Of a stretch of 64,000 nt of DNA, positions 26,790-34,579 are shown piece by piece. The DNA comes from Komagataeibacter medellinensis NBRC 3288 (GTDB lineage: Bacteria; Pseudomonadota; Alphaproteobacteria; Acetobacterales; Acetobacteraceae): contig NC_016027.1 in the NCBI RefSeq assembly GCF_000182745.2, positions 1,305,001 through 1,369,000 on the forward strand, in the 5' to 3' direction. Every line of letters starts with the position of its first letter. Position 1 is the stretch's first letter. The notes below the pieces were generated by a model. The model saw only the letters and a list, made by a program, of their open reading frames with translations, was not told where the DNA came from and made no database searches. The position numbers were made by a program, and so were the translations under genes.

Positions 26790-28412
26790 ATGATTCGTCT
26801 CGACAGCATCAGCAAGCATAACGGCCAGCGCCTGGTCTTTATCGAGGCCTCCGCCGCCCTACAGAAGGGGGAGAAGATCGGGCTGGTCGGCCCCAATGGC
26901 GCGGGCAAGACCACGCTATTCCGCATGATCACGGGACAGGAAGAACCCGATGAGGGCCAGATCCTGGTTGATCGTGGCACCACCATCGGCTTCTTCAGTC
27001 AGGACGTAGGCGAAATGGCAGGCCGCAGCGCCGTGGCCGAGGTGATGGAAGGGGCCGGTGCGGTATCGGAAGTAGCCGCCGAACTGGCTACGCTGGAAAA
27101 TGCGCTGGCCGACCCCGAACAGGCTGATCAGCTTGAAGAAATCCTTGAGCGCTTTGGCGAGGTACAGGCCCGCTTTGAGGAACTCGGCGGCTACGCGCTG
27201 GACAGCAAGGCGCGCGAGGTGCTGCATGGCCTGGGCTTCAGCCAGGAAATGATGGATGGCGATGTCAGCCGTCTTTCAGGCGGGTGGAAGATGCGCGTTG
27301 CCCTGGGCCGCATCCTGCTTATGCGCCCCGATGTGATGCTGCTTGATGAGCCGAGCAACCATCTGGATCTGGAAAGCCTGATCTGGCTGGAGCAGTTTCT
27401 GGCGGGCTATGACGGCGCGCTGCTCATGACATCGCATGACCGGGCATTCATGAACCGGGTCATCAACAAGGTGATCGAGATTGATGGCGGCAGCCTGACC
27501 AGCTTTTCGGGCGATTACGAGTTTTACGAGCAGCAGCGCGCCCAGAACGAAAAGCAGCAGCAGGCCCAGTTCGAGCGCCAGCAGGCGGCGCTGGCCAAGG
27601 AAATCAACTTCATCGAACGCTTCAAGGCCCGCGCCTCGCACGCGGCCCAGGTGCAGAGCCGCGTCAAGAAGTTGGAGAAAATCGACCGCGTGGAGCCCCC
27701 CAAGCGGCGGCAGGCAGTCAGCTTCGAGTTCCCGCCCGCGCCCCGCTCGGGCGAGGACGTGGTCAAGCTGCGCGGCGTGGACAAGCGTTATGGCAACCGC
27801 GTGATCTACCATAACCTTGACCTGCTGGTCCGCCGCAGGGAACGGTGCTGTATCCTTGGCGTCAATGGCGCGGGCAAGTCCACCCTGCTCAAACTGGTCA
27901 CTGGCACGACCGAGCCCGATGCGGGTACGGTCACGCTGGGGGGCAGCGTAAAGATGGGGTATTTTGCCCAGCATGCCATGGACCTGCTTGATGGCAACCG
28001 CACGGTGTTCGAGACGCTGGATGATGCCTTCCCGCAGGCCAGCCAGGGTTCGCTGCGTGCCCTTGCGGGCAGCTTTGGCTTTTCGGGCGATGAGGTGGAA
28101 AAGAGCTGCCGCGTGCTTTCAGGCGGCGAGAAAGCGCGGCTGGTCATGGCGCTCATGCTGTTCGACCCGCCCAATTTCCTGGTGCTCGATGAACCGACCA
28201 ACCACCTGGACATCGTCACCAAGGAAATGCTGATCACCGCCCTTGCGCAGTACGAAGGCACCATGCTGTTTGTCTCGCATGACCGGCACTTCCTTTCCGC
28301 CCTGTCCAACCGGGTACTGGAACTGACACCAGATGGCATTCACCAGTATGATGGTGGCTATACGGAATATGTGGCGCGCACCGGGCAGGAAGCACCGGGA
28401 CTGCATGCGTAG
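26790..28412 (+). CDS. ABC-F family ATPase (ribosome-associated)
   Basis: The 540-residue cytoplasmic protein has two ABC ATPase domains and no membrane segments. Walker A motifs are GPNGAGKTT and GVNGAGKST, signatures LSGGWKMR and LSGGEKAR, and Walker B motifs LLDEPSNHLD and VLDEPTNHLD. The linker between them is charged and helical (EQQRAQNEKQQQAQFERQQAAL), as in the P-site tRNA interaction motif. Such proteins act on stalled or initiating ribosomes. It is closest to the Uup/YbiT-like groups rather than EttA, but the subgroup is not certain. The ATG at 26790 with GAGGA upstream is chosen over a longer in-frame leader. Confidence 0.9.
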   Translation: MIRLDSISKHNGQRLVFIEASAALQKGEKIGLVGPNGAGKTTLFRMITGQEEPDEGQILVDRGTTIGFFSQDVGEMAGRSAVAEVMEGAGAVSEVAAELATLENALADPEQADQLEEILERFGEVQARFEELGGYALDSKAREVLHGLGFSQEMMDGDVSRLSGGWKMRVALGRILLMRPDVMLLDEPSNHLDLESLIWLEQFLAGYDGALLMTSHDRAFMNRVINKVIEIDGGSLTSFSGDYEFYEQQRAQNEKQQQAQFERQQAALAKEINFIERFKARASHAAQVQSRVKKLEKIDRVEPPKRRQAVSFEFPPAPRSGEDVVKLRGVDKRYGNRVIYHNLDLLVRRRERCCILGVNGAGKSTLLKLVTGTTEPDAGTVTLGGSVKMGYFAQHAMDLLDGNRTVFETLDDAFPQASQGSLRALAGSFGFSGDEVEKSCRVLSGGEKARLVMALMLFDPPNFLVLDEPTNHLDIVTKEMLITALAQYEGTMLFVSHDRHFLSALSNRVLELTPDGIHQYDGGYTEYVARTGQEAPGLHA

Positions 28413-28454
28413 ACGCGGGCAGGCGGCGGTAAAAATAATGTTCTACTCCTTGAT

Positions 28455-28475
28455 AATACCATAGGGGGGTATAAT
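28455..28475. promoter_or_regulatory. CsoR-like operator upstream of copA
   Basis: AATACC-ATA-GGGGGG-TATAAT lies 31 bases before the copA ATG, overlapping a likely -10 box (TATAAT). The G-run with flanking ATACC/GGTAT symmetry is the form of a CsoR copper-repressor site. A near copy in the opposite orientation precedes the multicopper-oxidase operon at 31341-31360, which strengthens the call. Confidence 0.65.
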
Positions 28476-28505
28476 ATCAGGGTGGCATGCTCACGGAGTG
28501 GCCCC

Positions 28506-30884
28506 ATGCCCCAGACCTTTACATTCCCTGTTGGCGGCATGTCGTGCGCTGCCTGCGCTGCCCGTATCGAAAAAGTCCTGAACCGGCAGGACGGGGTGCA
28601 TGCCACCGCCAATCTTGCCACCGAACGCGTACAGGTCACACTGGACACCCCCGCCGCAACCCTTGCCAATGTTGCCTCCGCCCTCGGCAAGGCAGGTTTT
28701 ACGGTGGGGGAAAAGAGCATCGACCTGGCCATAACCGGCATGTCGTGCGCTGCCTGCTCCGCCCGGATCGAAAAGGTGCTAGACCGCCTGCCACTGACAC
28801 GCGCCAGCGTTAATCTTGCCACCGGGCGGGCGCATATCGTCTTCGTGCCCGGCGTAACCGATCCCGCCGCCCTGATCGCCCGTATTGAAAAGGCGGGCTA
28901 CGGCGCAGAACCCGTTGAAGATACGCCACAGGCTGATCCCCGCATGGAACGCGCGCGGGAATGGCACGCGGCCTGCCGCCAGTTTGGCCTGACCCTGCTG
29001 CTGTCGCTCCCTTTCTGGGGGCAGATGGTGATGATGCTGTCAGGCTCCATGCACATGATGCCCGGCTGGCTACAATGGCTGCTGGCAACACCCGTTCAGG
29101 CCTACTGCGCGCGCCATATGTATGCGCGCGCCTGGAAGGCCGTGCGCGGCGGGGGGGCGAACATGGATGTGCTGGTGGTACTGGGCACCAGCATTGCTTA
29201 CGGCTTCAGCGCGATTGTGGTCGCACTGGGCCTGAAGCAGCCGATCTATTTCGAGGCCAGTGTCGCGATCATTACCCTGATCTCCCTAGGCAGGCTAATG
29301 GAAAGCCGGGCACGCAACCAGACGGGGGCGGGGCTTGAAAGCCTGCTGCGCCTGCAGCCCGCCATAGCCCATATCGAGACCGGTGGCAGCATTGTGGACC
29401 GGCCCGTGGCGGATGTGCGCGTAGGCGACACATTCGTGGTACGCCCCGGTGAAGCCATTCCTGTTGACGGCACGGTCACGCAAGGGGCATCGGAAGTCAA
29501 CGAAGCCATGCTGACGGGAGAAAGTCTGCCGACGATCAAGCAACCCGGCAGCACGGTCTTTGGCGGCACGACCAATACCACCGGCGCATTGCGCGCTACC
29601 GCCACCGGCGTGGGCCATGATACGGCACTGGCCCATATCGTGCGCATGGTGGAGCAGGCGCAGGGATCGAAGGCCGCCGTACAGCGGTTGGTGGACCGGA
29701 TTGCCAACATATTCGTGCCTGCGGTGCTGGCGATCGCACTGGTCACGTTCGTGGTGGGATGGCTTGTAACGGGCAATGCGGGGTGGAGTATCGTATCCGC
29801 CGTATCGGTACTGGTCATTGCCTGCCCATGCTCGCTGGGGCTTGCAACGCCCACGGCCATCATGGTGGGCACCGGGGCGGGCGCGCGCGCGGGCATCCTG
29901 TTCCGCAACGCCGATGCGCTGGAACGGGCACAGAAGCTGACAACGCTCATCATGGACAAGACCGGCACGCTAACACAGGGCAGGCCGGGTGTCAGCGATG
30001 TCCTGCCCACGGCGGGCGTGAATGAACACACGCTGCTGGCCATGGCCTGCGCGCTGGAACAGGATTCCGAACATCCGCTGGCCCGGGCCATCGTGGCGCA
30101 TGCGCAGGCCAATGGCGTAGCACCGGAACCGGTCACGGATTTTGTGGCCATACCGGGCAAGGGCGTTACCGCGCGTGTTGGCGGGATTGCCGCATGCCTT
30201 GGCTCACCCCGCTTCCTGACGGACAGCAACCTCATGCCCGACACTGCGGTAACCGACCGGCTGGAGCATGAAGGCAAGACCACCATCGGCGTTGCGGCGA
30301 ATGGGCGGTTTCTGGGCTATATTGCCCTGTCCGACCAGTTGCGCCCCGATGCGGTGGCAACCGTCAGCACGCTCAGGGCCGCGGGCATTAGGGTCATCAT
30401 GCTGACAGGCGACAACCAGCACACGGCCGCCGTGGTGGCGCGCGCGGTGGGGGTGGATGATTACCGCGCGGGCGTGCTGCCGGCCGACAAGGCGCATGAA
30501 GTGCAGAAATACCGGAGTGAGAACGCAGTCGTGGGCATGGTGGGGGACGGGATCAATGATGCCCCGGCCCTTGCGGCGGCCGATGTAAGCTTTGCCATTG
30601 GCGCCGGGGCTGCCATAGCGCTCGATACAGCCGATATTATCCTGATGCGCAGCGAACTGGGCAGTGTGCCCGATGCCATCTCGCTTTCCCGCGCAACGAT
30701 TGCCAAGATCCGCCAGAACCTGTTCTTTGCCTTCATCTACAACATTCTCGGCCTGCCACTGGCGGCGTTCGGCCTGCTCAACCCGATCGTGGCGGGCGGT
30801 GCGATGGCCATGAGTTCGCTCTCGGTCGTCAGCAACGCGCTCCTACTCAACCGCTGGAAGCCCGGCACCCGCGCGGGCAGTTGA
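28506..30884 (+). CDS. copA: Copper-exporting P1B-type ATPase
   Basis: The 792-residue inner-membrane pump exports Cu(I) with ATP. Two N-terminal heavy-metal domains carry GMSCAAC (Cys14/17 and Cys81/84). After the first membrane helices come the actuator (TGES), the CPC metal site in helix 6 (IACPCSLGLATP, near 440), the phosphorylation site DKTGT (Asp near 483) and the hinge MVGDGINDAPAL. All catalytic motifs are intact. The gene lies behind a CsoR-like operator and just ahead of csoR. ATG at 28506 (MPQTFTFPV) with GGAG upstream is preferred to an upstream in-frame codon. Confidence 0.95.
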   Translation: MPQTFTFPVGGMSCAACAARIEKVLNRQDGVHATANLATERVQVTLDTPAATLANVASALGKAGFTVGEKSIDLAITGMSCAACSARIEKVLDRLPLTRASVNLATGRAHIVFVPGVTDPAALIARIEKAGYGAEPVEDTPQADPRMERAREWHAACRQFGLTLLLSLPFWGQMVMMLSGSMHMMPGWLQWLLATPVQAYCARHMYARAWKAVRGGGANMDVLVVLGTSIAYGFSAIVVALGLKQPIYFEASVAIITLISLGRLMESRARNQTGAGLESLLRLQPAIAHIETGGSIVDRPVADVRVGDTFVVRPGEAIPVDGTVTQGASEVNEAMLTGESLPTIKQPGSTVFGGTTNTTGALRATATGVGHDTALAHIVRMVEQAQGSKAAVQRLVDRIANIFVPAVLAIALVTFVVGWLVTGNAGWSIVSAVSVLVIACPCSLGLATPTAIMVGTGAGARAGILFRNADALERAQKLTTLIMDKTGTLTQGRPGVSDVLPTAGVNEHTLLAMACALEQDSEHPLARAIVAHAQANGVAPEPVTDFVAIPGKGVTARVGGIAACLGSPRFLTDSNLMPDTAVTDRLEHEGKTTIGVAANGRFLGYIALSDQLRPDAVATVSTLRAAGIRVIMLTGDNQHTAAVVARAVGVDDYRAGVLPADKAHEVQKYRSENAVVGMVGDGINDAPALAAADVSFAIGAGAAIALDTADIILMRSELGSVPDAISLSRATIAKIRQNLFFAFIYNILGLPLAAFGLLNPIVAGGAMAMSSLSVVSNALLLNRWKPGTRAGS

Positions 30885-30976
30885 ATGCCCCGCCCCGCGC
30901 GCAATGCGGAGCATGCGTGGTGCGGGGAGCCTTAGGCTGCTATCGTGCCACGAAACGATGCAGGGAATTACGGTGC

Positions 30977-31318
30977 ATGCCACGAAACGGACAGCCAGGA
31001 AAAAAACAGGCAGAGTGCGCGCAATGCGTCCCGCAGCCTGACCCAAAAAAGGTTGAACAGCCCCACAAGAAAGCCCTTATTAATCGCGTGCGCCGCATTG
31101 AAGGCCAGATGGGCGGCGTGCTGAACATGATCGAGGATGACCGGTATTGTGTTGATATCCTGACCCAGGTCTCGGCCATAAAGGCAGCACTGGACGGGGT
31201 GGCCATCCAGATCCTGTCCACACATGCCAAGGGCTGCGTGCGCAAGGCCGTAATGGAAGACGGGGGAGATGAGACGATGGATGAACTGCTAGGGATCGTA
31301 CGCAAGCTGATCCGCTAA
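30977..31318 (+). CDS. csoR: CsoR-family copper-sensing repressor
   Basis: The 113-residue regulator belongs to the CsoR/RcnR (DUF156) family of four-helix metal sensors. The helix LINRVRRIEGQMGGVLNMIEDDRYCVDIL carries the first Cys ligand, and STHAKGCVRKAV supplies His and Cys (H-x3-C), together the Cu(I) site of CsoR. An N-terminal extension of about 30 residues holds two more cysteines (AECAQC) that could also bind metal. Copper binding releases the protein from its operators. It sits directly after copA; two matching operator-like sites occur in the cluster. ATG at 30977 with AGGGAA upstream; a TTG start at 30881 is in frame but unlikely. Confidence 0.88.
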   Translation: MPRNGQPGKKQAECAQCVPQPDPKKVEQPHKKALINRVRRIEGQMGGVLNMIEDDRYCVDILTQVSAIKAALDGVAIQILSTHAKGCVRKAVMEDGGDETMDELLGIVRKLIR

Positions 31319-31340
31319 CAAAGTGGAAAAAATGCTTTCT

Positions 31341-31360
31341 TATGCCCCCCATGGGTATTA
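31341..31360. promoter_or_regulatory. CsoR-like operator upstream of the multicopper oxidase operon
   Basis: On the minus strand this reads TAATACC-CAT-GGGGGG-CATA, matching the copA site at 28455-28475 in the AATACC, the three-base gap and the six-G run. It lies 47 bases before the first gene of the exported-protein/oxidase/copB operon. Confidence 0.6.
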
Positions 31361-31406
31361 TAAAACCCCTGTCTATGCGTGGTGCATCGGTGCACGGGAG
31401 CCCTGA

Positions 31407-31784
31407 ATGATCAGGACACATGGCCGGGTCTGGATTGGTCTGCTGAGTTGGCTGCTGGTGCAGGTCGGGCTGCTGGTCGGTGCTGTTCCCCTGCCCGCAC
31501 GGGCACATCCCACCCTGATTGTCTGTACACAGGCAGACCAGCCCCAGTGCATGACAGCGGCAACCCATGCCGCCCACATGGTCCATATGCACCACACCAC
31601 ACCCACGGGCGGACAGTGCTGCCATATCCATGCGGGCACGGACATACCCTCCCCCCCTACCACGCCGCACCTGATCGCCTGTCCCATAACGGGCGGACGG
31701 CCCTTCGGGATCCATACCCCGGCCCGGCACCCGGGCGGTGACTGGCTGCCCCCGCTCCGCCCCCCGAAAAACCGGAACACATAA
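31407..31784 (+). CDS. Small exported His/Cys/Met-rich protein of the copper cluster
   Basis: A 125-residue protein starting with a signal-like hydrophobic segment (VWIGLLSWLLVQVGLLVGAVPLPARA). The mature part is rich in possible copper ligands: AAHMVHMHHTT, a CC pair in GGQCCHIHAG, and further single Cys and His residues. GGGAG precedes the ATG. It is first in line after the second operator and 81 bases ahead of the oxidase gene, so it is probably a periplasmic copper-binding helper. I do not recognise a named family with confidence; it is somewhat like DUF2946 proteins. Confidence 0.65.
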   Translation: MIRTHGRVWIGLLSWLLVQVGLLVGAVPLPARAHPTLIVCTQADQPQCMTAATHAAHMVHMHHTTPTGGQCCHIHAGTDIPSPPTTPHLIACPITGGRPFGIHTPARHPGGDWLPPLRPPKNRNT

Positions 31785-31865: not shown

Positions 31866-33722
31866 ATGCATATGCCTGTTCCCTCACGCGCGCGCCTGAC
31901 CCGGCGGCGCTTCGTGACGGGCCTGGGCGCGGGCGGCCTTGCCGCCGCCCTGCCCCGCCCACCTGCCGCCCATGCCAGCCCCACGGGCATGGTACCACCA
32001 GCCTCGCACCCGGCATGGAGCCTGAATGTTGGCCGCACCCGTATCGAAATCGACCGCAAGGTCCTGCACGCGCCATGCATAGGCGGGGCCGTGCCCGGTC
32101 CCATCCTGCGCTGGCGGGAGGGGGATACGGTTGCCCTGAGCGTGACCAACACGCTTGAAGATGAAGACACCTCCATTCACTGGCATGGAATACGCCTGCC
32201 CTACACCATGGATGGCGTGCCGGGCCTGAGCTTTACCGGCATACCGCCCGGCAAGAGCTTTACCTACCGCTTTCGGGTCAGCCAGAGCGGAACCTACTGG
32301 TACCACAGCCATTCCGGCATGCAGGAAGCACAGGGACTGTATGGCGCGGTGGTGATCGACCCCCTGCGCCCCGACCCGCATGCCTGTGCGCGGGATTACG
32401 TGATCGTGCTGTCTGAATGGACGGATGTCTCGCCCATGGACATAATCAACAACCTCAAGATGCAGGATGACTACTATGTCTTCCGCCAGCGCACTGCCGC
32501 TTCCCTGCCGCATGAGGCTCGCATGGCAGGTGGCCTGCTACCGGCCCTGAAGGACCGCCTGGCCTGGTCACGCATGCGCATGGCGGCGACCGACATTTCG
32601 GACGTGACCGGCATCATCTACACTTACCTGATGAACGGCCATGCGCCCGACATGAACTGGAGCGGGCTATTCAGCCCCGGTGAGCGGGTACGGCTGCGTT
32701 TTGTCAACGCATCCTCCATGACGTTTTTTGATATCCGCATACCCGGTCTGGAAATGCTGGTGGTACAGGCTGATGGCAATGATGTCGAACCCGTGCCGGT
32801 GGATGAATTCCGTATCGGGGTGGCGGAAACCTACGACGTGATCGTGCAGCCACGCGACAGCGCTGCCTATACCATCTTTGCCCAGAGCGAGGACCGCACC
32901 GGCTACGCCCGGGGCACCCTCGCCCCCCGCCCCGGCATGAGCGGCCCGATCCCGCCCATGGACCCGCGCCCGGTGCGAACCATGGTCGATATGGGCATGG
33001 GCGACATGAAAACGGGCCATGCCATGCAGCACATGGACATGCCCGACACGCAGCCGGACCACGACATGCAGGACATGGATATGCCGGACGAAAAACCGGA
33101 CCACGCCCTGCATCATATGAACATGCCCGGCATGGAAATGGACAGCAGCATGCCCGGCATGGACATGGGGCATACCCAACCGGCCAGCACGCCCGCGCTG
33201 GAAATCGATGATCCGGGACCACCACCACTGAATGTGGAAAACCAGAACATCGCCCGCATGCCTATTGACCGCCTGGACAGCCCCGGCGACGGGCTGGAGA
33301 ACAATGGCCGCCGCGTGCTGAACTACCGGCAGCTACGCGCCACCCGCCCCGGCACGGACCCCCGCCCACCCTCGCGGGAGATCATCCTGCACCTGACCGG
33401 CAACATGGAACGCTACATATGGGGCTTCAATGGCCGAAAATTTTCCGAGTCCGGGCCAATCCGCCTCCAACGCAACGAACGGGTACGCTTTACCCTGATC
33501 AATGACACGATGATGGAACACCCGATCCACCTGCACGGGCTGTGGAGCGAGTTGGAGAACGGACAGGGAGAATACCGCCCATATAAACACACCATCATCG
33601 CGCAGCCCGGTTCACGGCTGAGCTATCTGGTTACCGCCGATGCACCGGGCATGTGGGCCTATCACTGCCATCTCATGCTGCATATGGAACTGGGCATGTT
33701 CCGCACGGTCATTGTGGAATGA
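31866..33722 (+). CDS. Multicopper oxidase, PcoA/CopA copper-resistance type
   Basis: The 618-residue periplasmic enzyme oxidises Cu(I) to the less toxic Cu(II). A Tat signal is present (TRRRFVTGLGAGG). Three cupredoxin domains carry the copper ligands: HWHG and WYHSHSG early, HPIHLHG and HCHLMLHMELGM at the end, giving the trinuclear and type-1 sites. Between domains, near residues 375-440, is a Met/His/Asp-rich segment with repeated H-M-D-M-P units, a typical copper-loading region of PcoA-like oxidases. Its TGA overlaps the copB ATG. This is the pco/cop-plasmid-type CopA, unrelated to the ATPase of the same name. Confidence 0.93.
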   Translation: MHMPVPSRARLTRRRFVTGLGAGGLAAALPRPPAAHASPTGMVPPASHPAWSLNVGRTRIEIDRKVLHAPCIGGAVPGPILRWREGDTVALSVTNTLEDEDTSIHWHGIRLPYTMDGVPGLSFTGIPPGKSFTYRFRVSQSGTYWYHSHSGMQEAQGLYGAVVIDPLRPDPHACARDYVIVLSEWTDVSPMDIINNLKMQDDYYVFRQRTAASLPHEARMAGGLLPALKDRLAWSRMRMAATDISDVTGIIYTYLMNGHAPDMNWSGLFSPGERVRLRFVNASSMTFFDIRIPGLEMLVVQADGNDVEPVPVDEFRIGVAETYDVIVQPRDSAAYTIFAQSEDRTGYARGTLAPRPGMSGPIPPMDPRPVRTMVDMGMGDMKTGHAMQHMDMPDTQPDHDMQDMDMPDEKPDHALHHMNMPGMEMDSSMPGMDMGHTQPASTPALEIDDPGPPPLNVENQNIARMPIDRLDSPGDGLENNGRRVLNYRQLRATRPGTDPRPPSREIILHLTGNMERYIWGFNGRKFSESGPIRLQRNERVRFTLINDTMMEHPIHLHGLWSELENGQGEYRPYKHTIIAQPGSRLSYLVTADAPGMWAYHCHLMLHMELGMFRTVIVE

Positions 33723-34579
33723 GGGGCCTGATCTGCATGGCCGCCGTGCTGTCATCCGGCATGGGCGCGGCGGCACTGGCACAGCCCACCAGCCCGGACA
33801 GTGCCAGCACCCACACGGCCACCACACACACAGCCCCCCACAAGAATACGCCCCGCACGTACGCCCCACCCAAGCCGACCTATCATGCTGCCGATGCCCC
33901 TTCCGCCACACCGGTGGTCTATCTGGGCAACATGAAGCCGGTGATGGACCATGCCCGCTATTTCCACGGCATCATGGATGAACTGGAGGGACGCTACGCA
34001 CCTGGTGGCACGGATTTCCGCTGGGATGGGGAAGCCTGGTACGGGACCGACTACAACCGTGTCTGGCTCAAGTCCGAAGGTACGCTTGAGCGGGGACGGC
34101 TGCATGATGGCGATCATGAACTGCTGTACAGCCGTGCCATTTCATCCTATTTCAACGTGCAGGGCGGCGTGCGTGCGGATATTGACGATGGCCCGACGCG
34201 CACCTGGGGCGCTGTAGGCATACAGGGACTTGCTCTCTACCAGTTTGAATTCCAGGCCACCGCCTATGTAAGCGACCGGGGGCGGTTCGCCACCCGGATC
34301 GAGGGATCATACGATTTCCTGCTGACCAACCGGCTGATCCTGCAGCCTCAGGCAGAGTTCAATCTCTACACCAAATCCGATCCCGCACGGCAGGTGGGCG
34401 CCGGGCTGTCCGATGTCGATGCCGGGCTACGGCTGCGCTATGAAATATGGCGCAAATTCGCCCCCTATGTTGCCGTGACCTATTCCGGCTACCTGACACA
34501 GGCGCGCCGGATTGTGCATGACCAGCAGGGGGAGACAGGCACGCTGCGGTTCAGCTTTGGCATTCGCGGCTGGTTCTGA
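33719..34579 (+). CDS. copB: Copper-resistance outer membrane protein B
   Basis: The 286-residue protein has a signal peptide (MRGLICMAAVLSSGMGAAALA), a His/Thr/Pro-rich linker, then the CopB/PcoB domain: MDELEGRYAPGGTDFRWDGEAWYG, then FNVQGGVRADI, and a barrel ending in a terminal Phe (RFSFGIRGWF). It is expected to form an outer-membrane barrel that works with the multicopper oxidase. The start overlaps the oxidase stop by four bases (ATGA), so both are co-translated. PcoC and PcoD counterparts are not present nearby. Confidence 0.92.
   Translation: MRGLICMAAVLSSGMGAAALAQPTSPDSASTHTATTHTAPHKNTPRTYAPPKPTYHAADAPSATPVVYLGNMKPVMDHARYFHGIMDELEGRYAPGGTDFRWDGEAWYGTDYNRVWLKSEGTLERGRLHDGDHELLYSRAISSYFNVQGGVRADIDDGPTRTWGAVGIQGLALYQFEFQATAYVSDRGRFATRIEGSYDFLLTNRLILQPQAEFNLYTKSDPARQVGAGLSDVDAGLRLRYEIWRKFAPYVAVTYSGYLTQARRIVHDQQGETGTLRFSFGIRGWF

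Follow-up and report, generated by a model that had tools for sequence, protein, structure and literature searches.

In bacteria without CueR and CopY, copper sensing is believed to fall to CsoR homologues (PMC10141476; statements on this and the other papers cited refer to the part of each source that was accessible). Here we describe a copper locus in a 64,000-nucleotide stretch of the Komagataeibacter medellinensis NBRC 3288 genome (contig NC_016027.1, positions 1,305,001 to 1,369,000 of the forward strand; hereafter the window), in which a csoR gene lies between two similar operator-like sites. One site precedes the copper-ATPase gene copA and the other precedes an operon for a small His/Cys-rich protein, a PcoA/CopA-type multicopper oxidase and a CopB-type outer-membrane protein. 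Judging from the sequence, we consider it very likely that a single CsoR governs both copper-detoxification operons through two type 2-like operators, and that Cu(I) releases the apo-CsoR bound to them.

The csoR-cueA locus of Bradyrhizobium liaoningense (PMC5057107) shares with the present one an alphaproteobacterial CsoR, a Cu-ATPase target and a CsoR box, TATACCCCTACCGGGTATA, whose ATACC...GGTAT ends resemble those found here and which overlaps the −10 element. There one shared box controls both csoR and the ATPase gene, whereas two sites are arranged around csoR in the window, and the accessible part of that paper names no CsoR box for the B. liaoningense multicopper oxidase gene, itself called copA. 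In Staphylococcus aureus (PMC6191537), as we propose here, a single chromosomal CsoR represses an ATPase operon (copA-copZ) together with an oxidase-holding operon (copB-mco). S. aureus differs in being Gram-positive, in having its oxidase downstream of a second ATPase, and in that its CopB is an ATPase and not the outer-membrane CopB. The CsoR paralogue RicR of Mycobacterium tuberculosis likewise acts at several operators, including the one at mmcO, which encodes a multicopper oxidase, but ctpV, a transporter gene, is part of a distinct CsoR operon (PMC10470581). Since CsoR-family control of oxidase operons has these precedents (S. aureus copB-mco and M. tuberculosis RicR-mmcO), the wiring proposed here would be built from known parts.

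Pseudomonas putida offers a proteobacterial CsoR that binds the copA-I promoter, but deletion of csoR has a weak effect there (about 1.3-fold) beside CopRS and CueR (PMC11978298). CopA1 of this species is described as a multicopper oxidase (PMC12428095); we take copA-I and copA1 to be one gene, although PMC11978298 places copA-I among the ATPases. The sites themselves resemble the type 2 CsoR operators of Streptomyces lividans, in which TAC-N9-GTA flanks G-tracts (PMC3902906). The S. lividans consensus is nearly symmetric (ACCCC...GGGGT), whereas the G-tract is one-sided here. The literature searched, which covered few subscription papers, holds no account of CsoR in Komagataeibacter or Acetobacteraceae, and the papers joining CsoR with Gluconobacter, or with Acetobacter and copper, concern other subjects to judge by their titles and the beginnings of their abstracts.

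Two operator-like sites around csoR

The first-pass annotation of this DNA had noted two matching motifs, the second inverted, with csoR between them. Both motifs are present, at coordinates one base away from those first given: at up to three mismatches the pattern AATACCNNNGGGGGGYATAA has exactly two matches in the window (28455-28474 on the + strand and 31340-31359 on the − strand), each with 0 mismatches. The csoR gene between them has a PF02583 match, and the identities assigned to copA, csoR, the oxidase gene and copB are borne out by domain and profile matches, that of the exported protein by a hydrophobic N-terminus as judged by eye (Table 1).

Table 1. Features of the copper locus in window coordinates, with the evidence for each
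Feature	Position	Strand	Evidence and remarks
Promoter-like elements spanning operator 1	28450..28477	+	TTGATA-16-TAATAT in scan; TATAAT at 28470 by eye
Operator 1 (copA site)	28456..28472	+	ATACCATAGGGGGGTAT; TAC-N9-GTA; G-tract on coding strand; 33 bp 5' of copA ATG
copA, Cu+-exporting P1B-type ATPase, 792 aa, two HMA domains	28506..30884	+	TIGR01511 570 bits, cut-off 397
csoR, copper-sensing repressor, 113 aa	30977..31318	+	PF02583 1.3e-28; best PDB match 4m1p (CsoR) 5.3e-22; ligand residues
Operator 2 (pcoA-operon site)	31342..31358	-	ATACCCATGGGGGGCAT on - strand; TAC-N9-GCA; G-tract on template strand; 48 bp 5' of next gene
Small His/Cys-rich protein, 125 aa, hydrophobic N-terminus, first gene of periplasmic operon	31407..31784	+	Weakly DUF2946-like
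PcoA/CopA-type periplasmic multicopper oxidase, Tat signal	31866..33722	+	TIGR01480 797 bits, cut-off 479; TIGR01409 19.7 bits, cut-off 16.7
CopB/PcoB-type outer-membrane copper protein	33719..34579	+	PF05275 1.4e-75; start overlaps oxidase stop

Shuffled windows held a mean of 0.23 matches to AATACCNNNGGGGGGYATAA and reached two in 1 of 100 cases, a comparison that, like the genome-wide count that follows, is partly circular because the pattern was derived from the same two sites. Across the genome of 3,513,191 bases, the 17-mer core ATACCNNNGGGGGGYAT has only two exact matches, both at this locus. Relaxing the search to two mismatches yields 43 matches versus 28 for a reversed-pattern control, and only the exact matches stand out from that control. 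All three one-mismatch matches (L004-L006) lie inside open reading frames (ORFs) of at least 284 aa, and inspection by eye of 3 of the 38 two-mismatch matches (L008, L021, L027) indicated no copper gene.

Operator 1 is an exact fit to the type 2 form TAC-N9-GTA; operator 2 keeps its spacing and has GCA instead of GTA in one half. A promoter scan of positions 28200-31600, which scores consensus match only, gave four promoter-like matches against a shuffle mean of 1.1. One pair of candidate elements spans operator 1, and a CTTGA element just 5' of this operator recurs in many relatives.

Conservation in Komagataeibacter and beyond

The comparison within the genus covered all 19 Komagataeibacter genomes available. 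The 17-mer has 76 matches there at up to one mismatch, versus 25 for the reversed control. Those before copA or the exported-protein gene comprise all 32 exact matches and 6 of the 44 one-mismatch matches; the other 38 lie elsewhere, and the ten of these that were inspected (L004-L006, L205-L208, L213-L215) indicated no copper gene. Counted from the 38 places preselected among the 76, every genome (19/19) has one site 31-35 bp before copA with its G-tract on the coding strand, and one site 44-49 bp before the exported-protein/oxidase/copB operon with its G-tract on the template strand. In 15 of the 19 genomes both sites match the strict pattern without mismatch, and in all 19 the copA site forms a perfect TAC/GTA dyad. 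Over 12 promoters each, identity reaches 92% in the copA operator and 95% in that of the oxidase operon. The flanks are mostly 34-60% identical; identity rises to 78% only in the 10 bp immediately 5' of the copA site, where the CTTGA element lies.

The sites also stay with their genes where the gene order changes. The operon comes after csoR in the window and several species; K. xylinus, K. melomenusus and K. nataicola have it at the opposite side of copA, in inverted orientation, and retain its site (copA matches of at least 250 residues were shown in this comparison). One genome (G060) has copA about 970 kb from csoR on the same contig and a draft (G203) has it on a different contig from csoR, still with the site in each case. 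Because the sites are conserved before both operons in all 19 genomes, we regard this conservation as the decisive support for joint control by CsoR.

For the wider family, we compared the 150 bp upstream of the genes at 39 loci (the window and 38 named Acetobacteraceae loci), allowing up to two mismatches to ATACCNNNNGGGGGYAT and taking the expectation from dinucleotide shuffles. Unusable upstream regions were left out (5 for copA, 10 for the exported-protein gene and 3 for the oxidase gene) because the gene was not found by tblastn or lay too close to a contig end. Of the usable promoters, 24 of 34 for copA (0.4 expected) and 25 of 29 for the exported-protein gene (0.22 expected) contain the site; requiring an exact match lowers these counts to 22/34 and 13/29 (0.0 expected each). 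For comparison, the site was found upstream of the oxidase gene in 0/36 and upstream of csoR in 1/39. Five Acetobacter loci (L090, L091, L094, L098, L099) have copA and the oxidase gene in divergent orientation with a single site between them, and a single site also lies between the oxidase gene and copA, seen only in part, at L097.

A repeat arising by chance would explain why near matches to the motif are common, at 43 versus 28 for the control in this genome, and why half of the genus matches at up to one mismatch lie elsewhere than at the two sites. It would not explain that every exact match in the genus precedes the same two genes. We reject it as extremely improbable on the strength of the upstream enrichment over shuffles and the constant placement of the sites in the genus.

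In a sample of 200 genomes of the family, the exact pattern has 24 matches in 17 genomes versus 8 matches for the reversed pattern, and 20 of the 24 lie beside csoR, copA or oxidase genes while 4 do not. Among the 101 genomes that have a CsoR relative 16 contain it, versus 1 of the 99 without one; many of the 101 are weak matches and may represent other branches of the protein family. Eight genomes (G050, G051, G082, G091, G103, G107, G130, G151) have the exact pattern 6-46 bp before the matched part of the csoR relative. Outside the family, a looser TAC-N9-GYA rule, tabulated without a control, finds a site at 11 of 42 loci, 10 of them beside csoR, copA or an oxidase-like gene. By this same uncontrolled rule a site stands shortly before csoR at five Bacillota loci (L118, L129, L134, L138, L141) and between copA and csoR in Acinetobacter baylyi.

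Such placements bear on another reading, in which some other factor uses the motif as its operator, or the motif is a mere G-rich promoter spacer, and the nearby csoR is incidental. The overlap with promoter-like elements at site 1 would fit this reading, CsoR binding being a prediction, but the form of the motif matches published CsoR operators (PMC3902906) and the Bradyrhizobium CsoR box (PMC5057107). Its recurrence just before csoR relatives in the eight family genomes, together with the Bacillota and Acinetobacter sites, also argues for CsoR, and we hold a different factor or a spacer to be very unlikely.

A further arrangement is seen in three more distant Acetobacteraceae (L219, L220, L224), where an oxidase-like gene 30-34% identical to that of the window comes after csoR; in two of the three, copA is divergent with an operator between.

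Proposed joint control by CsoR, and other candidate regulators

In the sequence of events that we infer, apo-CsoR would occupy ATACC-N7-GGTAT-like sites at low Cu(I), lying between the −35 and −10 elements and overlapping the latter. Bound CsoR would shut off copA-csoR, silencing the pump of the cytoplasm and, by presumed read-through, the repressor itself. It would likewise shut off the exported protein/pcoA/copB operon, with its periplasmic oxidase and outer-membrane protein. Cytoplasmic Cu(I) would then fill the Cys-His-Cys site, CsoR would leave the DNA and both operons would be transcribed together.

In many Proteobacteria these roles fall to CueR and CopRS. The CueR profile TIGR02044 has no match over cut-off in any of the 19 genus genomes, the window's own included, and 15 of the 19 have weaker MerR-type matches. 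The CopR profile TIGR01387 has 18 matches in the window's genome, none of them over cut-off (best 248 bits, cut-off 279). For a MerR-type protein encoded on contig C7, the top-scoring NCBIfam profile is CueR (125 bits, cut-off 147.4), and the gene adjoins, by eye, a cation-diffusion-facilitator (CDF) gene and RND-pump genes. A second one, on contig C4, is best matched by the MerR profile, below cut-off, and sits among mer-like genes. Both have Cys at what we take to be the position of Ser77 in CueR. CueR as the true regulator was judged unlikely, given the mer-like genes around the C4 match and the CDF- and RND-like genes by the C7 match. The ORFs listed around CopR-profile matches on contigs C7 and C3 gave no assignment, and an unlinked two-component or MerR-type input may act as well.

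Alternatively, CsoR might control copA-csoR only, with the oxidase operon under CopRS or a MerR-type regulator and site 2 a decayed copy of the operator. This would be consistent with the imperfect GCA half of site 2, with the 18 CopR-profile matches and the CueR-like score of the C7 protein, and with P. putida, where copAB is run by CopRS (PMC12428095). A decayed copy would not be expected to be conserved as site 2 is, matching site 1 in identity (95% vs 92%) and keeping its place in all 19 genomes. CueR over cut-off is missing throughout the genus, and the two MerR-type candidates lie among genes of other kinds and carry the presumed Cys at the Ser77 position. Such a division of labour therefore appears unlikely to us. 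The first-pass proposal, one repressor over the cytoplasmic and the periplasmic arm, seems better supported by genus-wide conservation, by moved genes that keep their sites, by the single csoR and by the lack of any CueR or CopR over cut-off in the profile searches above.

Several observations weigh against joint control by CsoR. The 19 genus genomes, being closely related, do not count as independent, and in 17 of them the oxidase-operon site has GCA in place of a perfect GTA half. The promoter scan found no sigma-70 match at operator 2. No site within two mismatches was found before copA in 10 of 34 cases or before the exported-protein gene in 4 of 29, the loci concerned all being Gluconobacter; 9 of the 10 copA promoters, counted as misses, carry a one-sided relative of the motif, ATAGGG...GGGGTAT, at a comparable position. 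Two of the exported-protein matches (L075, L089) have two mismatches and lie at 117-120 bp, off the usual place. The exact pattern is absent from 85 of the 101 family genomes with a CsoR relative, and the TAC-N9-GYA rule finds no site at 31 of the 42 loci outside the family. The 150 bp upstream of csoR itself lack a site in 38 of 39 loci, so that autoregulation would depend on read-through from copA. A second CsoR relative at E <= 0.001 is found in 11 of the 19 genus genomes (L157-L167); ten of these share one version at about 31-32% identity, nine of them on contigs under 50 kb, and assignment by elimination is thus valid only for genomes with a single CsoR. Finally, CsoR binding and copper-dependent expression at both sites are predictions. 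The expectation that the motif would precede orthologous copA and pcoA-type genes holds throughout the genus (19/19), and beyond it must be qualified, since the copA site has mostly diverged in Gluconobacter.

If joint control by CsoR is correct, one copper sensor would switch on an inner-membrane pump and a periplasmic oxidase, as a genus-wide arrangement. The periplasm would be defended by an oxidase under a cytoplasmic Cu(I) repressor and not under the periplasm-sensing CopRS. Acetic acid bacteria rely on periplasmic oxidations. In this vinegar- and cellulose-making genus, such a compact two-operator regulon would be suited to measuring how one CsoR grades its operators. It is conceivable, although we think it rather improbable, that the two operators are tuned differently, with the opposite polarity of the G-tracts and the degenerate GCA half letting one cytoplasmic sensor stage the response of the two compartments in the absence of CueR and CopRS. 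Operator type would then set the order of derepression, the periplasmic arm opening at lower copper because of a weaker hold or having a different dynamic range.

The repressor and the surrounding genes

A PF02583 search of the window's genome finds csoR as its sole CsoR/RcnR-family gene at E <= 0.001. No NCBIfam equivalog scores over cut-off for the protein, the best being RicR (80 bits, cut-off 175). Alignment with CsoR structures places the Cys-His-Cys ligand set in its Y-C and H-x3-C motifs, and both motifs are kept in all 48 aligned relatives (L062-L109, chosen from 80 fetched). An RLxR-like basic motif has been described in helix 1 of CsoR (PMC3902906); the window protein reads RVRR, with V for L, before IEGQ. 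The closest named genome by CsoR identity is that of Komagataeibacter rhaeticus (86%; the window's own record was possibly excluded).

A histidine near the N-terminal arm, H30, occurs in 11 of 12 named Komagataeibacter, and the other aligned Acetobacteraceae have N, R, Q, D or E there. The nickel and cobalt sensors RcnR and InrS have an additional N-terminal His ligand, and by hand alignment H30 presumably lies off that position. Because H30 is not kept in the other aligned Acetobacteraceae, an RcnR/InrS-type nickel site, at the ligand position we assume, appears less likely.

Outside the PF02583 domain, an N-terminal C-x-x-C (CAQC in the window, 30977-31045) is present in 36 of 38 aligned named Acetobacteraceae CsoR proteins. 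The exceptions are L088, without the second Cys, and L092, cut there by the chosen start. Stutzerimonas and Acinetobacter relatives also carry this motif, which might serve as an additional metal or redox site.

The first-pass annotation had called the locus a complete copper regulon. This holds insofar as copA and the oxidase gene encode the genome's only proteins over cut-off for TIGR01511 (Cu-ATPase, by profile search) and TIGR01480, respectively, but "complete" overstates a unit of two operons. The start of csoR lies 92 bp past the end of copA, and the two are presumably co-transcribed. Judged by eye from its hydrophobic N-terminus, the small His/Cys-rich protein is probably exported. Two of its three relatives match PF11162 (DUF2946) at about 1e-3 (20 bits, gathering score 23.7); the window protein and the third relative have no PF11162 match, and an NCBIfam search at E 10 gave none for the window protein or one relative.

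Two neighbouring observations may be added. On contig C4 of the window's genome (L209, 4508-8549), MerR-, MerT-, MerP- and mercuric-reductase-like ORFs, identified by eye except for MerR, form a cluster flanked by resolvase- and transposase-like ORFs. Just upstream of the copper genes in the window, an FTR1-type iron permease gene adjoins the gene for a cupredoxin-like protein (PF13473; 24829-26015, − strand), a possible iron/copper uptake pair.

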